Positions 23,462-62,572 of a stretch of 64,000 nt of DNA are shown here, one piece after another. How positions within the stretch are numbered: the first letter of the stretch is position 1; every line of letters starts with the position of its first letter. Both the position numbers and the translations under genes were made by a program. The notes under the pieces were generated by a model, which had not been told where the DNA came from, made no database searches, and saw nothing but the letters and a program-made list of their open reading frames with translations. Origin of the DNA: Prosthecobacter debontii (GTDB taxonomy: Bacteria > Verrucomicrobiota > Verrucomicrobiia > Verrucomicrobiales > Verrucomicrobiaceae); contig NZ_FUYE01000004.1 of assembly GCF_900167535.1 (NCBI RefSeq), positions 288,709 through 352,708 on the forward strand, written 5' to 3'.

Positions 23462-25189
23462 ATGATCGGCGACGAGTATTTCCAGCTTCGCACACGCCTC
23501 AGTTCGGAGCTACATGCTCTGGCTGAGGCCATTCGTGATGCCGGTGGGGATACGGAAGCCATCGCCATCACGGAAAATCTCATTGCCAGTCTGAAGGACC
23601 CCTTCGTCTTTGTCGTGGTGGGGGAGGTCAATGTGGGCAAGTCCACGTTTTTGAATGCCCTTTTTGGGCAGGATTTTTCTCGGACAGGCGTCATGCCCAC
23701 CACGGATAAGATCTACTTTTTCAAACACGGTCCCCGTCATGAGATCGTGCCCATCACGCCGACTCTGGACGAGGTGCACGTTCCGTTGGACCTGCTGAAG
23801 GATTTCCACATCGTCGATACCCCGGGGACCAACTCCATTGAAGATGAGCATCAGGAAATCACCGAGCGGTTTGTTCCCATCGCAGATTTAGTCATCTTCG
23901 TTTTCAGCGCCATGAATCCCTGGGGCGCTTCGGCTTGGCAATTCCTGGACAAAGTTCACCGCCACTGGATGCGCCATGTCATCTTCGTCCTTCAGCAGTG
24001 TGATTTGCGCACCCAGGAGGAAATTTCAGTCATTACGGACTACATGGGGCAGCTCTCCAGGCAGCGTTACGGACAGGATTTTCCACTGTTCGCCGTGTCG
24101 GGCCGAGATGCCAGCCTCGCACGTCGAGCGCCTGAAGGAGGAGAGCGGCAGCGCCTCCTCGAAGAGAGCGGTTTCTTGGCCTTGGAACAGCACGTGTCCA
24201 CGCTGGTGGGAAAAAACGCCGCCCGACTTAACAAGCTTTCGAGCACTGTGCGTATGGCGCGACAATTGCTCAACCATCTACGGGAGAACCTCGAACAACA
24301 GATCCAACTGGTGCAGCAGACTGCGGGACTGATTCAGGAGTTCCTCACGGAACGGGAAATGCAGGTCGATCGCACCCTGAAGAAAATTCTTCCTGCCCTG
24401 GACGCAACCGAACGAGACTATCATGAATCTTGTGTGCGCGTGGCCGACATGGCGGATGACGTCCTCTCCACCAGTCAGGCCTTCAAGAAAGGGCCGGGCG
24501 AGGAGGAGGAAATCAAGCCCGAGAGTCTGGACCATCGTCTCTTTCAGGATCTCCAGCATCGCAGTGGAGACAGGTGGCGCCAGGTTGGCATCATCCTGGA
24601 GGAAGACTACCTGCAATACGATCGCTTCCTGCATGTGCAGGGGCGCGGCAGTCTGTTCCCATCAGACGCTCCATTACCCGCCGAGACAGACCCAGATATC
24701 CGTCGTCTCTTCGCTGTGCACATCGATAGCACCATCCGCCGCTTCGTGCTTGGGCTGAAGCTCGATGAAGCCATCGAACCCGGTCTGCTGCGGGCGCGCA
24801 AACGCGCTCGTTGGGTGCCTTGGCTAATTCTTCCCGTCATTACCGCCGTCGCCATCGCGTGGTATTTTGATGGGCCCATCGGTGCCGCCATCACGGGGGC
24901 CGGAGGGCTGCTCTTGCTGGGATTTGCTCTTCTCATCACTCAGACCACGCTGAACTCCACCCGTGCTCAGTTAGCAGATCGTCTGGAGACCTCGACGGTC
25001 AAGCTACGCGAGATGCTTCAGACCCAGGTGCATCATGATGTCTCCACCCTCTTTGGCAGGTTTCTACCTTTGCTAGAACCTGCCAAGGAAGATGCTCAAG
25101 CTCGCGAGCAATACCTGCTCGCTCAAAGAGATCGCCTCCAGACCCTCTCTGAATCCCTCCATGCCTTCCAGCATGAGTTGGTCAGGTGA
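23462..25189 (+). CDS. Dynamin-like GTPase with C-terminal membrane hairpin
   Basis: The 575-residue protein has a dynamin-type G domain: G1 GEVNVGKST (54-62), G2 MPTT (T80/T81), G3 DTPG (119-122), and a G4-like QQCD (178-181) in place of the usual T/NKxD. A long helical part (residues 250-420) precedes two membrane helices (about 448-495) and a short coiled-coil tail. Bacterial dynamin-like proteins bind and remodel membranes; this one has no second dynamin gene next to it, so it may act alone. There is no N-terminal signal, so the G domain faces the cytoplasm. The G4 variation could alter base specificity. Confidence 0.88.
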   Translation: MIGDEYFQLRTRLSSELHALAEAIRDAGGDTEAIAITENLIASLKDPFVFVVVGEVNVGKSTFLNALFGQDFSRTGVMPTTDKIYFFKHGPRHEIVPITPTLDEVHVPLDLLKDFHIVDTPGTNSIEDEHQEITERFVPIADLVIFVFSAMNPWGASAWQFLDKVHRHWMRHVIFVLQQCDLRTQEEISVITDYMGQLSRQRYGQDFPLFAVSGRDASLARRAPEGGERQRLLEESGFLALEQHVSTLVGKNAARLNKLSSTVRMARQLLNHLRENLEQQIQLVQQTAGLIQEFLTEREMQVDRTLKKILPALDATERDYHESCVRVADMADDVLSTSQAFKKGPGEEEEIKPESLDHRLFQDLQHRSGDRWRQVGIILEEDYLQYDRFLHVQGRGSLFPSDAPLPAETDPDIRRLFAVHIDSTIRRFVLGLKLDEAIEPGLLRARKRARWVPWLILPVITAVAIAWYFDGPIGAAITGAGGLLLLGFALLITQTTLNSTRAQLADRLETSTVKLREMLQTQVHHDVSTLFGRFLPLLEPAKEDAQAREQYLLAQRDRLQTLSESLHAFQHELVR

Positions 25190-48014: not shown

Positions 48015-49541
48015 TCAAGGCTGGACGGTCTTTTTCCCGCCGAAGAGGCCCTTGACCTTGGTGAAGAAGCCGCGCTTGGACTCGGGCACGGTGCGGGCGG
48101 CGGGGTCGGGGATGACGGCAGGGAGGGCACCGGGCTGGGCGGGGTCCCATCCACCGCCGAGGGCCTTGATCAGGGAGACGGTGGCGATGAGACGCTGGCT
48201 GGCGACTTGAACTGTGGCGCGCTGGGTGGCGAGGGTGGTGCGGTTGGCCTCGATGACGTCTAGGTAGGGGCTGGTGCCGGACTCGTAGCGAGTGTGGGCG
48301 AGGCTGGAGGCGCGGCCTGCACTGGTGCTGGCGCGCTGCTGGGCCTCAGCGGCGACGGCGAGGTGACGGATGGAGGAGAGGCTGGTCTCGACATCGGCCA
48401 CGGCGGCGAGAAAGGCCTGACGGTAGCCGGCGAGGGCTTCGTCGTGGGTGGCCTTGGCTTTGTTCAGGTTGAAAATGTTCTTACCACCGCTGAAGAGGGG
48501 GAGGCTGATGCTGGGGCCGTAGCTCCAGATGAGGGACTCGGGCTGCATGAGGAGATCGATGTCCGTGCTCTGGAATCCGGCGCGGCCGATGAGCTTGATG
48601 CTGGGGAAGAACTGGGCTTTGGCGACGCCGATGCGGGCAGTGGCGGCGGCGAGGGTGCGCTCGGCCTGGGCGACATCGGGGCGGCGCTCCAGGAGATCGC
48701 TGGGCACGCCGGTGGGGATGGCCGGGGGGCTACGCAGGGGGGCACCGGTGGGGGCGATGCGGAAGCTGGCGGCATTGGTTCCGAGGAGGATGGCGATGGC
48801 GTTCTCCAATTGGTCGCGCTGGGCCTGGAGGGTGGAGATTTCCGCTTCGGCGGAGGCGACTTCGGTTTCGGACTGCGCCTGCTCCAACTCGCTACCGGCA
48901 CCAGCATCGACGCGGGCTTTGGCGATCTTGTACGCCTCCCCACGGAGTCCGACGGCCTCCTTGACGTAGCGGATCTCTTGATCGAGAGAGCGCAGCTTAA
49001 AGTAGTTGGTGGCGACATCGGCCTGGATGCCTAACAGGACGTTGTGCACGGTGTCGGCGGCGGCTTCGGCCTCAGCGCGGCCGGCCTCGGCCCCACGACG
49101 GATTTTCCCAAACAAGTCGAGCTCCCAACTGAGGTCGGTGAGGGCATTGTAGGAGGGGCCTTCATAGTAGAGGCCGTTCAGGGGGATGGGGCTGATGGCA
49201 TTCTCCGAGGTGCGCTGGCGGTCGGCAGTGAGCGGCACGCTGAGCACGGGGAAGAGATCGGCACGAGCGAGACGAGCGGCGGCACGGGCCTGATCAAAGC
49301 GGGCGATGGAGGCCTTGAGGTTCTGGTTGTTGGCGGTGGCCTCGGCCATGAGCTCATTGAGCTTGGCGTCCTTAAAGACACTCCACCAGTTGCCTTTGGG
49401 CTGATCTGCGGCGGGGCGGGCTTCACGCCAGGTGACGCCTTTAAAGTTAGGCGGGGTGACGGTGGCGGGGCGCTCGTAGTTTGGCCCCACCTGGGCCATG
49501 GCGGCTGTGGTGGTGAGGAGGAGGGGAAGAAGGTAGCGCAT
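48015..49541 (-). CDS. RND efflux outer-membrane factor (NodT/OprM type)
   Basis: The 508-residue protein has a signal peptide without a lipobox Cys (AAMAQVGPNYERP), the VGPNYERP start typical of the OMF family, and two OEP repeats; motifs such as WWSVFKDAKLNELMAEATANNQNL (shortened) and LLERRPDVAQAERTLAAATARIGVAKAQF are classical. It forms the outer-membrane tube of the pump encoded upstream. It is the last of the TetR-MFP-RND-OMF series, 45 bases after the RND gene. The G+C content here looks higher than in neighbouring genes. Confidence 0.92.
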   Translation of the reverse strand: MRYLLPLLLTTTAAMAQVGPNYERPATVTPPNFKGVTWREARPAADQPKGNWWSVFKDAKLNELMAEATANNQNLKASIARFDQARAAARLARADLFPVLSVPLTADRQRTSENAISPIPLNGLYYEGPSYNALTDLSWELDLFGKIRRGAEAGRAEAEAAADTVHNVLLGIQADVATNYFKLRSLDQEIRYVKEAVGLRGEAYKIAKARVDAGAGSELEQAQSETEVASAEAEISTLQAQRDQLENAIAILLGTNAASFRIAPTGAPLRSPPAIPTGVPSDLLERRPDVAQAERTLAAATARIGVAKAQFFPSIKLIGRAGFQSTDIDLLMQPESLIWSYGPSISLPLFSGGKNIFNLNKAKATHDEALAGYRQAFLAAVADVETSLSSIRHLAVAAEAQQRASTSAGRASSLAHTRYESGTSPYLDVIEANRTTLATQRATVQVASQRLIATVSLIKALGGGWDPAQPGALPAVIPDPAARTVPESKRGFFTKVKGLFGGKKTVQP

Positions 49542-49586
49542 GGGAGGTGCGGGAGTGAGCGAGTGGAAGATGGCGCGAGAGGGGGA

Positions 49587-52500
49587 TCAATGCTCAGCGA
49601 TCAAGGCTGGGGCTGGGCTAGGGGCGGCCTCGTGGAGGGAGGTGGGCTTCTTCTGGCGGCCGAGTTTCATGACGAGCACATAAAACACCGGGGTGAGGAA
49701 GAGTCCAAGGAAGGTGACGCCGATCATGCCGGCAAACACGGCGGTGCCCATGGCGCGGCGCATCTCTGAACCTGCGCCGGTGGAGACCACCAGAGGATAC
49801 ACCCCGGCGATGAAGGCGATGGAGGTCATGAGGATGGGGCGCAGACGCAGGCGGCAGGCTTCCAGGGCGGCCTCCAGCGGGGAGAGGCCGTGCTCGAACT
49901 TCTCCTTGGCGAACTCGACGATGAGGATGGCGTTTTTACAGGCCAAGCCGATCAACACGATGAAGCCAATCTGAGTGAAGATGTTGTTATCCCCCCCGAC
50001 AATCATCACGCCTGTGAGGGCGAAGAGAAGGCAGACGGGCACGATCAGGATGATGGCCAGGGGCAGGCGCAGGCTCTCATACTGAGCGGCCAGCACCATG
50101 AACACGAGGAGGATGCACAGCGGGTAGATGTACACGGCGGTGTTGCCCGCGATGATCTTCTGATAGACGAGGTCGGTCCACTGATACTCAAAGCCGGGGG
50201 GGAGGGCCTTGGCCAGATCGGCCATAACCTGTTCACCTTGCCCGGAACTCAGCGCCTGCTGGGTGGCGGGGTCCATACCTGCGGCACCGTTGATGTCTGC
50301 CGCGAGATAGCCGTTGTAGTGCGTCACGCGGTCGGGCCCGTTGGTTTCCTTCACCTTGATGAGGGAACCGATGGGTACCATCGCCCCAGAGGCATTGCGA
50401 GTCTTCAGTCGGGTGATGTCGCTGACATCATCCCGGAACTGCGGTTCAGCCTGAGCGATGACCTGATAGGTGCGGCCAAATCGGTTCATGTCATTCACAT
50501 AAAGACTGCCGAGATTGATCTGAAGCGTCTCGAACAGATTGGCCAAAGGCACGCCCTGGACCTTGGCCTTTTCACGATCCACTTCGGCTTCGAGCTGGGG
50601 CACGTTGACGGTGTAGCCGGAATAGACCTGCTGGAGCTTACCTCCGGTGCCATAGGCCGAGCCAATGAGATCCTGCGTAGCTTTGTAGAGGGCGTCATAG
50701 CCTTGGTCACTGCGGTCTTGGACCATGAGCTTGAAGCCCCCGGTGGTGCCGATGCCGTTCACGGGTGGCGGGGAGAGCACCATGACCATGGCGTCTTGGA
50801 TGGCCATGAACTTGCCATTGAGCTCCTGAGAGATGGCGTCCGCAGAAAGCTCAGGCGTGGTGCGCTTCTCGAAGTCTTCAAGACCCACGAAGACGATGCC
50901 GCTGTTCGGGCTAATGCTGAAGCCATGGATGGACAAGCCCGGGAAGGCGATGGCATCTTTTACGCCGGGATGGTCCAGAACGATGTCTGACATGCGGCGC
51001 ATGACATCTTCCGTGCGGTCGAGCGAAGAGCCGTCGGGAAGCTGGGCAAAGCCAACCAGGTATTGTTTATCCTGCCCAGGCACGAAGCCCGAAGGCACGC
51101 GGTCAAAGACTCGCACCGTGAGCCAAACGAAGCCGCCATAGAACACCAGGGCGATGAGGCTGAACCGAATGATCCGCTTCACAATGCCGACATAGAAGTT
51201 AGACGACCACTCAAAGAAGCGATTGAAGGGACGGAAGAACCAACCCAGCAGGGCTTCCATCAGGCGAGTGAGAATGTCTTTCTTCGCATGGTGATCCTGC
51301 AACAACAGGGCGGAGAGAGCCGGACTGAGGGTGAGGGAATTGATCGCAGAGATGACTGTGGAGATGGCGATGGTCACCGCGAACTGTTTGTAGAACTGAC
51401 CGCTGAGGCCGCTGATGAAGGCGGTGGGAATGAACACGGCACAGAGCACGAGTGCGGTGGCCACGATCGGGCCTGTCACTTCACTCATGGCCTGCTTCGT
51501 CGCATCGACCGGTTTCAAACCATTGCGGATGTTACGCTCGACGTTCTCCACCACCACGATGGCATCATCCACCACGATCCCGATGGCGAGCACGAGGCCG
51601 AAGAGGGACAGGTTGTTGATGGAGAACCCGAGCGCATGCATCACGGCAAAGGTACCGACCAAGGAGACAGGCACGGCGGCCAAAGGAATGATGGAGGCAC
51701 GCCAGGTCTGAAGGAAGATGACCACCACGAGCACCACGAGAAGCACAGCTTCAATGAGGGTGTGAATCACCGCGTCGATGGATTTATCCACGAAAACGGT
51801 GGGGTCGTAGGCGATGGCGTAATCAAGATCTTGGGGGAACTTTTTCTTCAGTTCCTCCATCTTCTCACGCACCCCTTGAGAGAGCGCGAGGGCGTTGGCT
51901 CCGGGGAGCTGAAAGATGGGGATACCTACGGCACTCTTGTTGTTCAGCAAGCTACGCAGAGCGTATTCACTGGAGCCCAGCTCGATGCGGGCCAAGTCCT
52001 TGAGGCGCAGCTTTTCACCATGTTCGCCGACTTTGACGATGATGTTGCCGAACTCTTCTTCGGTGATGAGACGTCCCTTGGTATTGACCGTCAGTTCGAA
52101 AGGCACCGCACTCTTCACGGGTTGCTGTCCGATCACCCCGGCGGCCACCTGCACGTTTTGTTCGCGGATGGCATTGACGATGTCGGAGGAGGTTAAGCTA
52201 CGAGCTGCGGCTTTATCGGGGTCGATCCAGACGCGCATGGCGTAATCACCACCTCCGAAGATTTGGACTTGGCCCACTCCGGGAAGGCGCGCCAGTTCGT
52301 CCTTCACGTTCAGAGTCGCGTAGTTACGCAGGTAGAGCTCGTCATACCTCCCGTTAGGTGAGAGCAAGTGAACCACCAAGGTCAAGTCGGGCGATGACTT
52401 CACGGTGGTCACCCCGAAGCGGCGCACTTCCTCAGGCAATTTGGGGAGCACCTGCGAGACGCGGTTTTGCACCTGCACCTGGGCGAGGTCCACATCCGTG

Positions 52501-52796
52501 CCCAGCTTGAAGGTGATGGTGAGGGTCATCACGCCATTGGCCGTGCTCTGCGAGGACATGTAGAGCATGTTCTCAATACCGTTGATCGTTTGCTCCAAGG
52601 GAGATGCGACAGTCTCGGCAATCGTCTTCGGGTTAGCACCTGGGTAGGTGGCCGTCACGATTACGGTGGGTGGGGCTACTTCCGGGTATTCGGAGATGGG
52701 CAACTGAAAGAGTGAAATGCCCCCCAAGATGAAGATCAGGAGAGAAAGAACACCGGCAAAGATGGGACGTGTGATGAAGAACCGGGAGATGTTCAT
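49587..52796 (-). CDS. RND-family efflux permease (HAE-1/AcrB type)
   Basis: The 1069-residue inner-membrane pump begins MNISRFFITRPIFAGVLSLL and has twelve predicted helices, two large periplasmic loops, and the HAE-1 motif GIVVDDAIVVVENVERN in TM4, whose Asp residues carry the proton relay. The end of the protein has ANGVMTLTITF and QNRVSQVLPKLPEEVRRFGV in the pore region. Substrates are probably drugs, detergents or dyes but cannot be told. It follows the adaptor gene by 124 bases. Confidence 0.95.
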   Translation of the reverse strand: MNISRFFITRPIFAGVLSLLIFILGGISLFQLPISEYPEVAPPTVIVTATYPGANPKTIAETVASPLEQTINGIENMLYMSSQSTANGVMTLTITFKLGTDVDLAQVQVQNRVSQVLPKLPEEVRRFGVTTVKSSPDLTLVVHLLSPNGRYDELYLRNYATLNVKDELARLPGVGQVQIFGGGDYAMRVWIDPDKAAARSLTSSDIVNAIREQNVQVAAGVIGQQPVKSAVPFELTVNTKGRLITEEEFGNIIVKVGEHGEKLRLKDLARIELGSSEYALRSLLNNKSAVGIPIFQLPGANALALSQGVREKMEELKKKFPQDLDYAIAYDPTVFVDKSIDAVIHTLIEAVLLVVLVVVIFLQTWRASIIPLAAVPVSLVGTFAVMHALGFSINNLSLFGLVLAIGIVVDDAIVVVENVERNIRNGLKPVDATKQAMSEVTGPIVATALVLCAVFIPTAFISGLSGQFYKQFAVTIAISTVISAINSLTLSPALSALLLQDHHAKKDILTRLMEALLGWFFRPFNRFFEWSSNFYVGIVKRIIRFSLIALVFYGGFVWLTVRVFDRVPSGFVPGQDKQYLVGFAQLPDGSSLDRTEDVMRRMSDIVLDHPGVKDAIAFPGLSIHGFSISPNSGIVFVGLEDFEKRTTPELSADAISQELNGKFMAIQDAMVMVLSPPPVNGIGTTGGFKLMVQDRSDQGYDALYKATQDLIGSAYGTGGKLQQVYSGYTVNVPQLEAEVDREKAKVQGVPLANLFETLQINLGSLYVNDMNRFGRTYQVIAQAEPQFRDDVSDITRLKTRNASGAMVPIGSLIKVKETNGPDRVTHYNGYLAADINGAAGMDPATQQALSSGQGEQVMADLAKALPPGFEYQWTDLVYQKIIAGNTAVYIYPLCILLVFMVLAAQYESLRLPLAIILIVPVCLLFALTGVMIVGGDNNIFTQIGFIVLIGLACKNAILIVEFAKEKFEHGLSPLEAALEACRLRLRPILMTSIAFIAGVYPLVVSTGAGSEMRRAMGTAVFAGMIGVTFLGLFLTPVFYVLVMKLGRQKKPTSLHEAAPSPAPALIAEH

Positions 52797-52920
52797 GACG
52801 ATGGCTTGAGGTCGGGGACCTACAGGTGATCTCTAGCGCCGACGATCTGGAGCGATGGCTCGCCGATCAAAAGCCAGGAGACTCTGAGGCTGATGGGAAA
52901 AGGAGGGAGGATGCGCGAAC

Positions 52921-54066
52921 TCAATTTGCCGACGCCGTTGTTTTAGCCGGTGGGGTATCCACGGGAGCAACAGGCATGCCGGGCTGAGGTAAACGGGCTT
53001 GGCCGTTGATGATGATCTTGTCACCAGCGTTCAGACCGCTGCGAATGATGCGCTTGCCATTGATGCTCGGACCGATGACGACAGGCTTGTAAGTGCTCAT
53101 GTTCTTGTCATCTACCCCCAGAACAAACTTATTGGCCTGATCAGTGAGAATGCTTTTTTCATCCACCAGCAGCGCTGGGTATTCCGAAGTCATCGGGAGA
53201 CGAATGCGAGCAAACAAACCCGGGGTCAATGTGCCATCGCTGTTGGGAAATTCAGCGCGGATGATCATGCTGCCCGTGCTGGCGTCCAGACGGTTATCGA
53301 AAGACTCGATATGACCCTTATGAGGAAATCCGGTTTCATTGGAAAGCTGGAGTTCAACGGGGACACGACCTTTACCATTGGTGTAAAGTTTGTTCTCCCG
53401 TTTCAAGGCTTCCAGCTTCAGCAGGCTGTTCTCATCGATGTCCGCATAGACATATACGGGATCTACCGTCACGATGGTGGTGAGGAGGGTAGAGCCAGCG
53501 GTCACATAGTTGCCTTCCGTGGTGATGGCGCGGCTGATCCGGCCCGAAATGGGCGCTTTCACCTCGGTATGTTCGAACTCGATCTCGGCACTGTGTTGGC
53601 TCGCGCGAGCTGACTCCAGAGCGGCGAGGCTTTGCTTATACGTGGACTCACGGGTCTCGGCCTGTTCGGGTGCGATGGCCTTAGCGGCCAGCAGGGCAGA
53701 AACACGGTCGTATTCACGTTTAGCCGCCTCGGTGCTCGCTTCGGCACGTTGCACTTCAGCTGTGGCGATCCGCAGTTTCGTCTGGAAGGGGCGTTGGTCG
53801 ATGATGAACAGCACGTCGCCTTTTTTAACCAAGGCCCCGGCCTGGAACTTAACGTCGGTGATGTAGCCGGCGACGCGAGGACGCAACTCCACGGTTTCGG
53901 CAGGTTCCACACGCCCAGTGAACTCCTCCCACTCGACAAGCTTCCGTTGCTCAACGGGTTGTATCGTCACCGGAGCGGGTGGCATCTGTCCACCATGGCT
54001 TACCTGTGAATGCTTTCCACAGGCAGCGAGCAGCAAGACGAGCGGGAGGAGGGTTTGGGGTTTCAT
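52921..54066 (-). CDS. RND periplasmic adaptor lipoprotein (MFP)
   Basis: The 381-residue protein has a lipobox LLLAAC16, a lipoyl-like and hairpin region (GRVEPAETVELRPRVAGYI, FIIDQRPF, a helical hairpin at about 95-170) and beta-barrel domains up to the C-terminus (INGQARLPQPGMPV). It links the RND pump to the outer-membrane channel. It is the second gene after the TetR regulator, 38 bases downstream. Confidence 0.93.
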   Translation of the reverse strand: MKPQTLLPLVLLLAACGKHSQVSHGGQMPPAPVTIQPVEQRKLVEWEEFTGRVEPAETVELRPRVAGYITDVKFQAGALVKKGDVLFIIDQRPFQTKLRIATAEVQRAEASTEAAKREYDRVSALLAAKAIAPEQAETRESTYKQSLAALESARASQHSAEIEFEHTEVKAPISGRISRAITTEGNYVTAGSTLLTTIVTVDPVYVYADIDENSLLKLEALKRENKLYTNGKGRVPVELQLSNETGFPHKGHIESFDNRLDASTGSMIIRAEFPNSDGTLTPGLFARIRLPMTSEYPALLVDEKSILTDQANKFVLGVDDKNMSTYKPVVIGPSINGKRIIRSGLNAGDKIIINGQARLPQPGMPVAPVDTPPAKTTASAN

Positions 54067-54792: not shown

Positions 54793-56091
54793 TCAACTAT
54801 TTTTCTGAACGGCAGCCATTCGGGGTTCTGGAATCCAGTTTAAAATGAGCATCGAGATCACCGAAAAGACCGCGGCTGCTCCGGCGACAACTCCAAAAGA
54901 ATGAGTCCAAGCATACAGCCTGCCGCTGATAAACGTGGCCAGCAGCAAGGAGAAGACGTTACAAAAGCCCAAGATGGCTTGAAGGGTTGATCGCCGTTCA
55001 GCCGGACAGAGTTCGGCGGCCAGTGTGAGGTCACCAACACGGTCAAGAAATAGGCCAAAACCCAGGACAAAGTAGGCCAGCATGAACCCAGAAAACGATC
55101 CGGTGTAGGATACCCAGAGGCAGAGTGCCAAGCAGACAATGCGCGAGGCCTGAAGTAGAACCTTGCCTCCGCTTCTGTATCCTACCCAGCCAGCCAGAAG
55201 ACTGCCGAGCACAACCCCCACGGCTTGGCAGGTCACAAAACGTCCTTCATCCGCTTCCGGCCGTTCTGTCAGCTTCAAGGCATGGATGGTGAGAAAAGAA
55301 ACCACCATGAGATAGCCCGTGCCTGTGAAGCGGGCGATCGCGAGCTTGATCAAATTTGGCTGACCTCGCAAAAGGCGGGGTAGCTCTCGAAGGTACTGTA
55401 GATAAGGACCATAAGGTGATGAGGGATGCCGATGTCGAGTATGCTCATCCTCATGCATAAAGAGTTGTGAAACCCACGAGATGGAGAGGAGGGCGAATGC
55501 CGTGAGATGCAGCCATCCATAGGCCTCATGGTTGGGATAATGGGTCAGCACATGATGAATGACGGTGCCTGCCACGACGCCAATAATCGCCTGAATGATA
55601 TAACGAACAGCCCAGCCTGCTGCCCGGACTTTTTCAGGCACCATCCGAGTGACCATTTCCATCCATGCGACTACGGTCATGCCTCCGATCATCCCTGAGA
55701 TCACTGGAGTGAGGACAACGATGGGTAACAGAATTCCTTCAATCTTATCAGAGCATAGCAAGATAAGGCCTGTGATCAGGTAGGGAAGGCGCTGGAGAAA
55801 GCCAAAAAACAGAACCCACGGCTTAAACCGCGCCAATCGTTCGACGATAGGAGCGATGAAAATGCCCATGCTGGCAGACGCCGCAGGGAGAAGCACGGGC
55901 ATCATGGCGATGATCCAAGCCTTGCCGCCTAAGGTGTCCACCATCTTAGGAAGCACGCTTTCCGGCGCTAGGAAAGCCGTGCCACCCATATAGAGCCCTC
56001 CTTCCAGGCAATGGCAGATGAAATTACGCCTTACCGCATGATTGTGATGATGCTGGGAGGCGGGGGCGGCCGACATGTGGTGGGTCACCAA
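54793..56091 (-). CDS. MFS transporter
   Basis: The 432-residue protein has twelve predicted membrane helices and a His-rich N-terminus (HHHNHAVRRNF). The central cytoplasmic loop carries EDEHTRHRHPSS. Residues FLDRVGDLTLAAELCPAERRSTLQ (in part) before TM10 resemble MFS sugar or drug transporters. Substrate unknown. Its stop codon lies 31 bases from the TetR start, so the regulator's promoter would overlap its 3' end. It lies 37 bases downstream of the isomerase-like gene and may be co-transcribed with it. Confidence 0.88.
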   Translation of the reverse strand: MVTHHMSAAPASQHHHNHAVRRNFICHCLEGGLYMGGTAFLAPESVLPKMVDTLGGKAWIIAMMPVLLPAASASMGIFIAPIVERLARFKPWVLFFGFLQRLPYLITGLILLCSDKIEGILLPIVVLTPVISGMIGGMTVVAWMEMVTRMVPEKVRAAGWAVRYIIQAIIGVVAGTVIHHVLTHYPNHEAYGWLHLTAFALLSISWVSQLFMHEDEHTRHRHPSSPYGPYLQYLRELPRLLRGQPNLIKLAIARFTGTGYLMVVSFLTIHALKLTERPEADEGRFVTCQAVGVVLGSLLAGWVGYRSGGKVLLQASRIVCLALCLWVSYTGSFSGFMLAYFVLGFGLFLDRVGDLTLAAELCPAERRSTLQAILGFCNVFSLLLATFISGRLYAWTHSFGVVAGAAAVFSVISMLILNWIPEPRMAAVQKNS

Positions 56092-56951: not shown

Positions 56952-56968
56952 ACTTTGTTTCACAAAGT
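56952..56968 (+). promoter_or_regulatory. Operator O1: palindrome ACTTTGT-N3-ACAAAGT
   Basis: A perfect 7-bp inverted repeat with a 3-base centre. It precedes the membrane-protein gene and recurs at 56985-57001 and 58004-58018; probably the site of the winged-helix regulator at 57664. Confidence 0.75.
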
Positions 56969-56984: not shown

Positions 56985-57001
56985 ACTTTATGGCACAAAG
57001 T
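56985..57001 (+). promoter_or_regulatory. Operator O2: palindrome ACTTTAT-N3-ACAAAGT
   Basis: A second copy with one mismatch, centred 33 bases after O1 (three helical turns). It overlaps the in-frame ATG at 56990, so translation more likely starts at ATG 57008. Confidence 0.65.
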
Positions 57002-57007
57002 GAATTC

Positions 57008-57667
57008 ATGAGTCCACAACAAGACGCCCTCGAACATCTTCGGGTGATTCGCTCCCTCATGGAAAAGGCGCATATCTACCGCGCGATTTCAGCCCCTGCG
57101 GCTGCTTTGGGGGGGATTTTATCCGTGCTCTGCGCCGGCTTTGCGGGGTGGAGTATTGTTCAGGGTCAGGGTTTGGCTGAAGAACGAGGCAGTTGGTTTT
57201 TGGTGGAGTGGCTGCTCATCCTGGGGGTGACTGGCACGGTCAATGTCCTCCTCCTGGCGGGAGAGGCTAGGCGGCGTGGTCAGCCGCTTGTCTCGGACGG
57301 CATGCGTATGGCTCTAAGGGCGTTGGTCCCGCCTCTTTTAGTCGGAGGGGTTTTAGGCGTGGGGCTCATCGTTTACCTGCACAATCATGTGATGGCCGTT
57401 CTTATCTGGGTAGTCTGCTACGGTCTGGCTCTTCTGGCGACGTCCAGTTTTTCGCCGAAGTCCTTGATTAGGCTAGGATGGGTGTTTGTGATTCTCGGAC
57501 TCCTGTCATTTGTTGCCTGGGCAAGCTCAGGTGAGATCCGCAATCTGCCTCATGACCAGGGGCTGGCGGCCTTGCTCATGGGTGTTTCTTTCGGCCTGTG
57601 CCATATCATCTACGCTCTGTGCGTGTTTTTAAGTCCCAAACAGGAGGCGTTGGTGGTACCGAGATGA
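57008..57667 (+). CDS. Membrane protein of unknown function, first gene with winged-helix regulator
   Basis: With ATG 57008 the product has 219 residues: a helical N-terminal part (SPQQDALEHLRVIRSLMEKAHIYRAISA) followed by five or six membrane helices from about residue 30. I know of similar proteins placed directly before a winged-helix regulator but cannot name a function. It overlaps the regulator gene by four bases (ATGA). Two copies of the CTTTGT-N3-ACAAAG palindrome precede it, so it should be negatively autoregulated through the regulator. Confidence 0.75.
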   Translation: MSPQQDALEHLRVIRSLMEKAHIYRAISAPAAALGGILSVLCAGFAGWSIVQGQGLAEERGSWFLVEWLLILGVTGTVNVLLLAGEARRRGQPLVSDGMRMALRALVPPLLVGGVLGVGLIVYLHNHVMAVLIWVVCYGLALLATSSFSPKSLIRLGWVFVILGLLSFVAWASSGEIRNLPHDQGLAALLMGVSFGLCHIIYALCVFLSPKQEALVVPR

Positions 57668-57966
57668 TTGATTTCGATCAGCTCGATAAAACGATTCATG
57701 AAAAGAGTCGCCTTTCCATCATGACCTTGCTGGCAAGCCGTGGTGAGTGGGCATTTCAAGAGATGAAATCGGAGTTAGGGATGAGTGATGGCAATTTGAT
57801 CACCCATCTGCGCACCCTCGGGACGGCTGGTTACGTGCGGGAGCAGCGGGATGAGTCGGGCACGCGTCCGCGCACCACCTATCACCTGACCTCAGAAGGC
57901 AGGGTCGCATTCAAGCGCTATGTGGATGTGCTTGAGGCCATCGTGAAGACGATCAATCCCAGCTAG
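57664..57966 (+). CDS. Winged-helix transcriptional regulator
   Basis: The 100-residue protein is almost entirely an HTH domain (IHEKSRLSIMTLLASRGEW, ELGMSDGNLITHLRTLGTAGYV, TTYHLTSEGRVAFKRYV), similar to PF13601-type regulators. There is no sensor domain. Translation is coupled to the membrane-protein gene by ATGA overlap, so membrane protein and regulator may form a sensor-regulator pair. The palindromes O1-O3 around the operon are likely its targets. Confidence 0.9.
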   Translation: MIDFDQLDKTIHEKSRLSIMTLLASRGEWAFQEMKSELGMSDGNLITHLRTLGTAGYVREQRDESGTRPRTTYHLTSEGRVAFKRYVDVLEAIVKTINPS

Positions 57967-58003: not shown

Positions 58004-58018
58004 CTTTGTGTCACAAAG
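58004..58018 (+). promoter_or_regulatory. Operator O3: palindrome CTTTGT-GTC-ACAAAG
   Basis: A perfect copy of the 6-bp arms lies between the regulator stop (57966) and the ispH ATG (58060). It would place ispH and the diiron gene under the same regulator. Confidence 0.75.
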
Positions 58019-58059: not shown

Positions 58060-58902
58060 ATGACCATCCATCTCGCTCAACATTACGGCATGTGCTTTGG
58101 CGTCCGAGACGCGCTACGTGCCACTCACACAGCGGCTCAGTTGGAGCCTCTGACGGTCCTCGGACAACTGGTCCATAATCCCGTTGTCGATGCTCAAATG
58201 AGCCGGTTAGGCGTGAAACGGGGGGAACTTGACGATTTGAGCTCAGCCACCACTCAGCGGGTGGTGATCACCGCGCATGGATCTGCGCAAAGCCAACGTC
58301 TCCGCTGGGAGCGGGCTGGCTATCAGATCACAGATACGTCCTGCCCATTGGTTAGAAAAGCACATCAAGCCTTAGCGGTGCTGGTGGAAGAGGGATATCA
58401 TCCCGTGATCGTTGGCCAACGCCTGCATGCGGAAGTAAAAGGTCTGTTAGGGGACTGGCCTCATGCCTCGGTCATATTGACAAAAGCAGAAGCTGAAAGC
58501 CTGCCTCCTCATTTAAAGTTAGGCATCATTTCCCAGACGACCCAACCCCTGGATCACGTGCTGAACCTCGTGGCTATGGTCAAGCGTCAACAGCCTTGCT
58601 CTGAAGTGCGTTTTGTGGATACGGTGTGTCATCCTACCAAGCAAAGACAAACTGCGGTGGAGCAATTGGCTCAAGTATGCGGGCTCATTCTGGTGATTGG
58701 TGGCCGCAATAGTAACAACACGCGTCAGCTTGTGGAGAAGGCAAGCTCTCTTGGGGTTCGGGCCCGCCAGATTGAAACTCCCGAAGAACTCCGGCCGGAG
58801 TGGTTTTCCCAGGTGACCGACGTGGGAGTCACCGCTGGCACTTCGACATTGGACGAAACCGTCCGGGCTGTTCTGGACCGCCTCCAGACCTTCAACGCCT
58901 GA
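58060..58902 (+). CDS. ispH: 4-hydroxy-3-methylbut-2-enyl diphosphate reductase (IspH/LytB)
   Basis: The 280-residue protein reduces HMBPP to IPP and DMAPP in the last step of the MEP pathway, using a [4Fe-4S] cluster. The three cluster ligands C12 (GMCFGV), C95 (DTSCPLV) and C190 (DTVCHPTKQRQ) are present, as are H39, H73, H123 and E125 (RLHAEVKG), T160/T161 (SQTT) and the S-N-N substrate motif at 218-220 (GGRNSNNTRQ). It is shorter than typical IspH (about 310-320). ATG 58060 is used; an earlier in-frame start lies within operator O3. Whether a second ispH exists elsewhere cannot be seen. It precedes a diiron protein gene by 51 bases. Confidence 0.9.
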   Translation: MTIHLAQHYGMCFGVRDALRATHTAAQLEPLTVLGQLVHNPVVDAQMSRLGVKRGELDDLSSATTQRVVITAHGSAQSQRLRWERAGYQITDTSCPLVRKAHQALAVLVEEGYHPVIVGQRLHAEVKGLLGDWPHASVILTKAEAESLPPHLKLGIISQTTQPLDHVLNLVAMVKRQQPCSEVRFVDTVCHPTKQRQTAVEQLAQVCGLILVIGGRNSNNTRQLVEKASSLGVRARQIETPEELRPEWFSQVTDVGVTAGTSTLDETVRAVLDRLQTFNA

Positions 58903-58953
58903 TTTCTGCACTGCCTCGTCATCATCATACGCTTTCACCCAACACCCATTTTT

Positions 58954-59760
58954 ATGAACACATCGTTCTGGATCCATCACTATCAAACCAACGCTCTCGT
59001 CCATGATCGTATCCAATTGGAAGAATTGTCCTGTGATTTGCCTGACGCCATCCGAATCCCTCTGGCGGAGTCTTTAGCCATTTTCCAGCTTGGCGAATCA
59101 GGCACAGGTTCGCGTCTTCGACGTTACGCTCGCGAAGTGGCCCCTCTGGAAAATTTCCGCGGTTACCAACGCGCGATCGACCTTTTTGTTTGTGAGGAGC
59201 AAGCACACTCGCGTTTGTTGGGCCGGTTAGTCCGTCATCTCAATGGGACGCTTCTTGAAAAGCAGTGGACGAATTCGGTGTTCCGTCGGCTCCGTTTTCT
59301 GGTCAATTTGGAATTTGCCATTCAAGTGCTGCTGACGGCGGAACTGGTCGCAGAGGTCTATTATGGCACCCTATACATCAAAGTGCCTGATCCGGCGGTG
59401 CATTCGGCCTGCCGTCAGATCCTGCGTGATGAAATGAAGCATTTGGAGTTTCAAAGGCAGTTTCTTGCGGAGAGGGTGGCGTCATTCAGCCCGGTCGGCA
59501 GGTATGCTTGGGCGACACAGTTTCGTTGGATTCATGCGATTACCGTCCGTGTGGTGGCGTGGGACCATCGAGATTGTCTTCGGAGTCTCGGTGTCACACA
59601 GCAGGCGTTTGTAAAACGTTGTCATCAGGCTCACGAAAGCTTCCAGAACCGTTTGGACAACCTTATCGCGAATCTGGAGCAACGTGGTTCCGAACGGCAA
59701 GTCGAGGGGGCAGATGAGCCAGTTCGCTTGGCGTTTTCTCGGACGCCTCCTAAAGAATAA
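58954..59760 (+). CDS. Ferritin-like diiron protein
   Basis: The 268-residue cytoplasmic protein shows the four-helix diiron signature: E48, E82 and H85 (CEEQAHSRLLG), E130 or E134 (TAELVAEVYYG), E160 and H163 (RDEMKHLEFQ). Such carboxylate-bridged diiron enzymes include oxygenases, desaturases and aldehyde-deformylating enzymes. It lies 51 bases after ispH, so both are probably one transcript under operator O3. An oxygen-dependent modification of an isoprenoid or lipid is a reasonable guess, not shown. Confidence 0.8.
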   Translation: MNTSFWIHHYQTNALVHDRIQLEELSCDLPDAIRIPLAESLAIFQLGESGTGSRLRRYAREVAPLENFRGYQRAIDLFVCEEQAHSRLLGRLVRHLNGTLLEKQWTNSVFRRLRFLVNLEFAIQVLLTAELVAEVYYGTLYIKVPDPAVHSACRQILRDEMKHLEFQRQFLAERVASFSPVGRYAWATQFRWIHAITVRVVAWDHRDCLRSLGVTQQAFVKRCHQAHESFQNRLDNLIANLEQRGSERQVEGADEPVRLAFSRTPPKE

Positions 59761-61459: not shown

Positions 61460-62572
61460 CTATTCTTTCTTTCCGCCTTTTTTAAACAGCTCTTTATAAA
61501 TGCCAACGCCCAGCAGCTTCATGGTGGTGAAGTAGCTATTGGCGATATCCGCCGTTAAGAAGGCGAGATACACATCATTGGACGGGAAGAGACTGTTGGA
61601 GGCATAATAAATCAGTTTCTCGTTGCCACGGTACTTCGACTTGTGGAATGCCAGGCCTTTGAAATTGTAGATTTCACCGCCAAAACGCTCACTCAGTTGG
61701 AAAAACCACTTGGTCATCAGATCATCCGCATAGATCCCGCCCTCGATTTTGGTGAAAGGGCACATGAGGAGATTGAGCACTTCGACACCTTCGGTGCGGA
61801 AGATCTCCATCGCTGTCATATGCACTGCGGTGGCTAGGCGACCGTAGCGAGCTTCATCACAACGGACAGTATTGGCGCTATAACCAAAAATCTTTCCATC
61901 CTGATACATGGGATCGTAGAACACGTAGCCGATCGCCACGCCGTTCTTATCGAATGCGACAAACTTACGCACCTCAGGTTCGGGTTGGTAAACGGGCCGA
62001 CGTGCATAGACCCAGATTTCGCGATCATTGACCTTCTTGCCGAGCAGCCATTTCGACGAAAGTGCTTGGAGCTGATCGACGGGGACCGTGCTGATATCCA
62101 CCTCCCGAATGGTGATACCCTCGCGCTTAGTTTCATTACGAGCGCGTTTGATCATGTCTAACTCTTTCCAATTACCTTGTGTGTTATAGGTTTGGACGGG
62201 GAGCTCAGGCTCGTAGCCCACGCAGTTGACCTTGAATCCCATCTCCCGCAGCACCGTGGCGCAATATTCGGATACCACTGGAAACACCGCTGCTGGATGC
62301 TCCTGAATAAATGCATTCAGCAGCGGCCGGAGATCTTGGCGATCACAGATGGGGTCTGCCAGAACGATGCGTTTGGGTTTCCGAGCAAAGACGGGATGCA
62401 GGGCCGTGGTGAAAGCGATGTAGCCCAAATCATGCACAAAGTACTCCATGCCCTGCTGGAGTGTCGCATAGGAAAGAGACTCTCGGCCATGGCGGCGGAT
62501 ATGAGGCGACAATAGCAACCATTTGGTTTCCGGATCGAGATTTGCTGCCTCATTGCCTAAGATCGAACGCAT
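61460..62572 (-). CDS. DUF2156 (MprF C-terminal-like) acyltransferase domain protein
   Basis: The 370-residue protein shows features of the DUF2156 / lysylphosphatidylglycerol synthase C-terminal domain: a GNAT-like double fold with LDMIKRARNETKREGI, FVAFDKNGVAIGYVFYDPMYQ and LNLLMCPFTKIEGGIY. It has no membrane helices of MprF, so it may be a free-standing aminoacyl- or acyl-transfer protein. The start is ATG 62572. An alpha/beta hydrolase gene lies 42 bases upstream in the same direction; together with the DgkA-family gene they suggest lipid or polar-head-group modification. Confidence 0.7.
   Translation of the reverse strand: MRSILGNEAANLDPETKWLLLSPHIRRHGRESLSYATLQQGMEYFVHDLGYIAFTTALHPVFARKPKRIVLADPICDRQDLRPLLNAFIQEHPAAVFPVVSEYCATVLREMGFKVNCVGYEPELPVQTYNTQGNWKELDMIKRARNETKREGITIREVDISTVPVDQLQALSSKWLLGKKVNDREIWVYARRPVYQPEPEVRKFVAFDKNGVAIGYVFYDPMYQDGKIFGYSANTVRCDEARYGRLATAVHMTAMEIFRTEGVEVLNLLMCPFTKIEGGIYADDLMTKWFFQLSERFGGEIYNFKGLAFHKSKYRGNEKLIYYASNSLFPSNDVYLAFLTADIANSYFTTMKLLGVGIYKELFKKGGKKE

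Follow-up and report, generated by a model that had tools for sequence, protein, structure and literature searches.

IspH, the HMBPP reductase, is described as a rate-limiting step of its pathway, and bacteria using this pathway appear not to bypass it (PMC10663253); the enzyme is oxygen-sensitive owing to its Fe-S cluster (PMC11192765). The main text of the former paper, whose survey of the pathway spans 4,400 species, contains neither 'duplicat' nor 'multiple copies'. Both short-type IspH/LytB (PF02401, TIGR00216), such as the solved chain 3dnf, attributed to Aquifex in PMC11192765, and a long plant/cyanobacterial type (NF009911) belong to this reaction family. In B. subtilis, IspH depletion activates the SigM envelope response, an effect ascribed to lipid-carrier shortage (PMC11081497). 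HTH_34 winged-helix regulators (PF13601) are likewise a known family. Diiron proteins of the R2/R2lox/ADO fold often activate O2. IspH, HTH_34 and the diiron fold are all known, but the literature searched gave no description of them combined with a dedicated operator, and the titles and abstract openings among the matches listed held no description of an ispH-diiron pair or of the operator.

The window analysed here is a whole stretch of 64,000 nucleotides from Prosthecobacter debontii, in which an initial annotation had pointed out an ispH gene followed by a ferritin-like diiron gene. Both open reading frames sit where it had put them (58060-58902 and 58954-59760, plus strand), and the pair is real and conserved. 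What had been missed is a larger unit that includes a regulator, a membrane protein and an operator of its own: as judged from related genomes, the ispH2-diiron pair belongs to a conserved four-gene module made of a membrane protein, an HTH_34 regulator, ispH2 and the diiron protein. Its features are the following:

56953..56967, no strand: operator 1, CTTTGTTTCACAAAG, 5' of the membrane-protein gene; exact match to the palindrome CTTTGYNNNRCAAAG
56986..57000, no strand: operator 2, CTTTATGGCACAAAG, an imperfect copy that follows operator 1 and precedes the likely membrane-gene ATG
57008..57667, + strand: membrane protein with about six hydrophobic segments (hydropathy; start from the position of operator 2)
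57664..57966, + strand: HTH_34 winged-helix regulator, 100 aa (PF13601, 77.6 bits, cut-off 27)
58004..58018, no strand: operator 3, CTTTGTGTCACAAAG, upstream of ispH2; second exact match of the genome
58060..58902, + strand: ispH2, short IspH/LytB (Pfam, TIGR00216, alignment, match to a solved IspH); the genome's second copy
58954..59760, + strand: ferritin-like diiron protein, 268 aa, R2/R2lox/ADO-like fold (predicted model, structural matches, invariant ligands)

The ORF caller puts the start of the membrane protein at GTG 56978, and a conserved ATG lies at 57008; the latter is the likely start, because operator 2 falls between the two. No family was found for this protein in Pfam or NCBIfam. 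Its stop codon is overlapped by the ATG of the regulator (ATGA).

IspH2 reaches 234.7 bits against Pfam LYTB (PF02401, cut-off 24.5) and 221.9 bits against TIGR00216 (equivalog cut-off 187.85), and its closest solved chain by sequence is 3dnf (E 2.1e-44). Across 22 aligned sequences (21 IspH2 and the long IspH1), C12, C95, C190, H39, H123, E125, T160, T161, S218, N220 and S262 show no variation, and H73 is conserved across the IspH2 rows, the long IspH1 being the exception. We take the invariant residues to be the cluster and substrate residues, with C12, C95 and C190 as the three [4Fe-4S] cysteines, and the alignment to the solved IspH agrees with these roles. The completeness of cluster and substrate residues noted in the initial annotation is confirmed at these positions, whereas its description of the protein as short applies against the long IspH1 (280 versus 413 aa) but not against the standard model (282, versus 280 aa for IspH2). 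Like other short-type IspH, such as the Aquifex chain, IspH2 lies above the equivalog cut-off and retains the cysteines and substrate residues; it differs in accompanying a long IspH1 and in having its own HTH_34/membrane-protein pair and operator. With the long type it shares the reaction family, and the genome's other copy is of that type, but IspH2 scores only 103.3 bits against NF009911, below the cut-off of 440.

The genome (6.29 Mb, 99.6% complete) harbors two TIGR00216 loci, both above the cut-off, namely the window copy and a long copy on contig C20, together with one IspG locus. The second ispH that the initial annotation had advised looking for is thus present, on a different contig, and its product, IspH1, has 413 aa and scores 517.7 bits against NF009911 (cut-off 440). 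In a panel of 56 genomes (our genome and 55 relatives, numbered G below, with loci numbered L), whose counts are not independent because most belong to one genus of close kin, ispH2 was found in 35, including 29 of the 35 genomes of the genus (our own counted) and 6 of the 21 elsewhere in the order. Another, weakly matching ispH occurs in 54 of the 56, mostly as a frame of more than 400 codons (not G020 or G021; in pieces in G004 and G026). The searches for ispH2, HTH and operator covered the phylum, and in a sample of 387 genomes IspH2 matches of at least 60% identity were found in six, all of the same family and including our own; the remaining IspH2 matches listed are all at 38% identity or less. 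The tree of IspH suggested by the initial annotation, built here as a quick tree, places 26 IspH2 rows on one side of a branch and 24 other short IspH of the phylum on the opposite side (SH-aLRT 100).

Among 30 regions fetched, the 27 with ispH2 all show the one-strand order mem-HTH-ispH2(-diiron), with the membrane gene in 26 (the single region without it begins at a contig end), HTH in 27, ispH2 in 27 (one truncated) and the diiron gene in 20. An HTH orthologue is present in all 35 ispH2 genomes; in the 21 genomes without ispH2, HTH occurs solely as remnants, in G044 and, beside an ispH2 remnant, in G025. A further and weaker HTH match (36%) was found in G023. Like described HTH_34 regulators, that of the module passes PF13601 (77.6 bits), but its gene is coupled to that of an unnamed membrane protein and accompanies ispH2 in 35/35 genomes. 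The diiron gene adjoins ispH2 on the same strand in 28/35 ispH2 genomes, its match being split in G013 and cut by a contig end in G015, and in 4/5 further genomes with ispH2; it is not beside ispH2 in G010 (where ispH2 is truncated), G014, G037, G045, G049, G050 and G055. A second ispH exists and the ispH-diiron link that the initial annotation had asked to compare in relatives is conserved, contrary to the outcome that it had named as refuting its reading. Decay can also be observed, as G025 (L262) holds a decaying module with remnants of mem, HTH and ispH2, G044 (L263) an HTH remnant broken by a stop, and G010 (L089) a truncated ispH2 and no diiron gene.

Over all four module genes, dN/dS ranges from 0 to 0.21 in eight pairs of relatives (HTH 0-0.134; ispH2 0.056-0.109; membrane gene 0.065-0.214; diiron 0.046-0.192, one pair having saturated dS). 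The module is therefore maintained, from which we infer that IspH2 is a predicted second HMBPP reductase under local regulation. One could argue that it is an ordinary extra ispH with a passenger gene, its conserved neighbourhood reflecting shared ancestry only, as the genomes are close kin and their counts are not phylogenetically independent. We regard this as very unlikely, given that mem, HTH and operator are retained with IspH2 down to about 49-60% identity while the outer neighbours mostly differ between lineages and are common mostly within sub-lineages, that all four genes are under purifying selection in the pairs compared, and that operator and HTH are specific to the module.

The palindrome CTTTGYNNNRCAAAG is common to the upstream regions of the module. 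Its position in the genome is near-exclusive, as exact copies occur twice in 6.29 Mb, both in the module (reversed control, 0), and a third, imperfect copy also lies within it. An exact operator is found 5' of ispH2 in 35/35 genomes, 11-177 bp before the start, a count that partly reflects definition because the consensus was read from the same loci in which copies were counted. The more independent tests are the genome-wide uniqueness, the loci of other IspH and a genome of another order, G433. Of 98 other short ispH, 24 were returned as loci, and none of these 24 carries the operator or an HTH or mem match. In G433 (L204:8112-8841), a diiron gene 34% identical to ours begins next to two exact operators, which lie 16 and 34 bases ahead of the point where its protein match starts, and the nearer of them overlaps a possible ATG; no ispH2-like match was listed for G433 at E <= 1e-30 in the phylum sample, which presumably includes this genome. 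Five further ispH2 loci from that sample have an exact operator in 5/5 cases. Within the 56-genome panel, ispH2-bearing genomes yielded 100 sites versus 51 control sites, and genomes without ispH2 18 versus 30. Of 25 regions scored upstream of the membrane gene, 18 have an operator within 200 bp of the estimated start and seven, the more distant loci and G014, do not; by eye a second copy stands near this start in many relatives. A window-wide scan allowing 3 mismatches was uninformative (4 found versus 2.94 expected) and the exact genome-wide search was used instead. No promoter is claimed, because a sigma-70 scan found about the expected number (1 versus 1.2). As a local regulatory unit, predicted from these sequence patterns, the module is well supported.

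We propose that this unit is a self-contained inducible module in which HTH_34-operator control governs a second HMBPP reductase and its diiron helper, and we give the whole proposal an even chance of being right. The HTH_34 protein, translationally coupled with the membrane protein of about six helices, would bind the palindrome directly and would repress, rather than activate, two transcription units, namely its own with the membrane protein and that of ispH2 and the diiron gene. A membrane-borne signal, passed on by the membrane protein as putative sensor, would relieve repression, and the induced IspH2 would supplement the HMBPP reductase capacity of the long IspH1. The diiron protein would be an O2-activating accessory that clears O2 or peroxide near the O2-sensitive [4Fe-4S] enzyme; alternatively, it may perform an oxidation within the same response. 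The presence of a local regulator, an operator and a diiron gene with the second ispH suggests that the IspH step can be topped up or swapped on demand, and the module provides a short operator open to direct testing.

The initial annotation had recognised a carboxylate diiron protein with two ExxH motifs. Both motifs hold, as the putative metal ligands E48, E82xxH85, E130 and E160xxH163 (4 Glu and 2 His) are invariant in 23 sequences. The predicted model (mean pLDDT 90.3, pTM 0.85) resembles a ferritin-like helical bundle of the R2/R2lox/ADO type, with structural matches to R2lox (Z 20.7), R2 (about 20) and ADO (19-20), including Z 20.7 to 7qbp and 19.9 to 5ux2; Foldseek gave probability 1.00 with a best E of 3.6e-3, none being below 0.001. 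Helical bundles inflate the Z of such matches, but the six ligands are invariant. The likeness to R2, R2lox and ADO extends to fold (Z 19-21) and to the 4 Glu + 2 His pattern, whereas identity is only 7-16% in the structural alignments listed and, in contrast to R2 and ADO, no RNR large subunit or acyl-ACP reductase was recognised among the 8 scanned neighbours of the gene. In the profile comparison an ADO chain was matched at best with E 7.7e-4, over a 57-residue stretch and behind designed helix bundles. Membership in AurF (PF11583) was dropped, the score of 24.7 bits being under the gathering cut-off of 29.6. A contig scan with the protein returned 8 loci, all in MAGs named Verrucomicrobiaceae or Verrucomicrobia. 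The module offers a concrete setting for a diiron family that has no Pfam or NCBIfam name above cut-off.

The initial annotation had raised a special isoprenoid or lipid route. One form of it would have IspH2 and the diiron enzyme act in sequence, the latter oxidising an IspH2-derived or related prenyl compound. The conserved adjacency (28/35) and the intact active-site and diiron ligand residues would suit such a route. However, the genomes suggest that the diiron gene is dispensable to the module, which survives without it in 7/35, and G433 has a related diiron gene and no ispH2-like match listed. The 18 other window genes scanned include none recognised as a prenyltransferase, terpene or hopanoid gene, and specifically no hpn or shc gene was recognised among the 8 neighbours or the 10 further window genes. 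Squalene/phytoene synthases occur in 56/56 genomes irrespective of ispH2 and none was recognised nearby, so the special terpene route is unsupported and was set aside as leading reading; we hold it to be distinctly unlikely.

Oxygen could also be the key to the two copies. The long IspH1 would then serve normal growth and the short IspH2, of anaerobe-like length, low-O2 or post-damage conditions, with the diiron protein protecting or repairing the IspH2 cluster. This would agree with the long type of IspH1 (517.7 versus 440 bits for NF009911) and the shortness of IspH2, and with the frequent O2 activation by diiron proteins of this fold. The review PMC11192765 states that the termini of IspH classes tune O2 sensitivity and that anaerobes have no C-terminal extension. 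Against it, some relatives' IspH2 of 296-298 aa with a C-terminal extension still keep the diiron gene, whereas some of 278-284 aa (G014, G045, G049) are without it; the idea that the diiron protein substitutes for the absent extension was rejected, lengths across relatives showing no trade-off. Moreover, the regulator contains no cysteine, and what paired operators precede in relatives are genes of the membrane or envelope and not redox genes, the diiron gene itself excepted. Such a swap of isoenzymes is possible, but we consider it rather unlikely.

Under the inducible module proposed above, the signal may perhaps concern the envelope and isoprenoid supply, or be oxidative. Envelope or lipid-carrier supply is favoured because tandem operators in relatives precede CreD and a membrane-protein pair, and because PMC11081497 reports that IspH depletion triggers an envelope response in B. 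subtilis. The analogy with the SigM/YhdLK lipid-carrier response of that paper is one of function only, a membrane signal tied to isoprenoid or lipid-carrier supply; SigM/YhdLK is a sigma/anti-sigma system whereas the module has a winged-helix regulator, and no homology is claimed. More tentatively, and as a reading that we consider rather unlikely as a whole, the module may be an undescribed circuit in which a shortage of isoprenoid or lipid carrier, or the oxidative cause of that shortage, is sensed by the membrane-protein/winged-helix pair and answered with a dedicated HMBPP reductase and a diiron oxidase shielding or servicing it, envelope genes having been recruited to the operator in relatives.

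The sites outside the module are those among the sites listed, extra copies being possible in some genomes. Gene A, coding for an unnamed membrane protein, is present in 14/56 genomes, and an exact operator pair precedes it in G018, G023, G033, G034, G037, G045 and G050, the other 7/14 A loci being without exact pair. The pair stands before A in 6/10 ispH2 genomes having A versus 1/4 without ispH2, a weak contrast. G034 has the pair before A and no HTH orthologue was found in this genome, which is 87% complete in 1230 contigs. A second unnamed membrane gene, B, comes after A in the five regions read. At L163:6822-8415, L164:4847-6448 and L165:6643-8236, tandem operators accompany such adjacent multi-helix membrane-protein genes; no Pfam match was found for the A/B proteins of L163 and L165, nor any NCBIfam match for the L163 pair. 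In G055 (L169:5182-6783), tandem operators lie upstream of the envelope-integrity gene CreD (PF06123, 495.6 bits). The envelope link rests on relatives, and for CreD on one genome, since A was not matched in our own genome at E <= 1e-10 and half of the A loci are without the pair. Single extra sites, found near an ABC transporter (G049) and genes for secreted proteins (G050, G055), are close to the number expected by chance (control, 81 in 56 genomes) and may be fortuitous.

A distant paralogue of the diiron protein, dii-B, 27-32% identical to that of the window, was found in 10 of 11 regions examined, the 11th being that of G433. The dii-B regions lack an exact operator as well as any match to ispH2, HTH or mem, and have few neighbour families in common, each in two regions at most. 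Elsewhere in the window, 23462-25189 encodes a bacterial dynamin-family GTPase and 48015-54066 an RND efflux set (outer membrane factor, AcrB-type pump and HlyD-type fusion protein), followed by an MFS transporter (54793-56091). Near the module, 61460-62572 encodes a stand-alone protein with an MprF-type phosphatidylglycerol lysyltransferase C-terminal domain.
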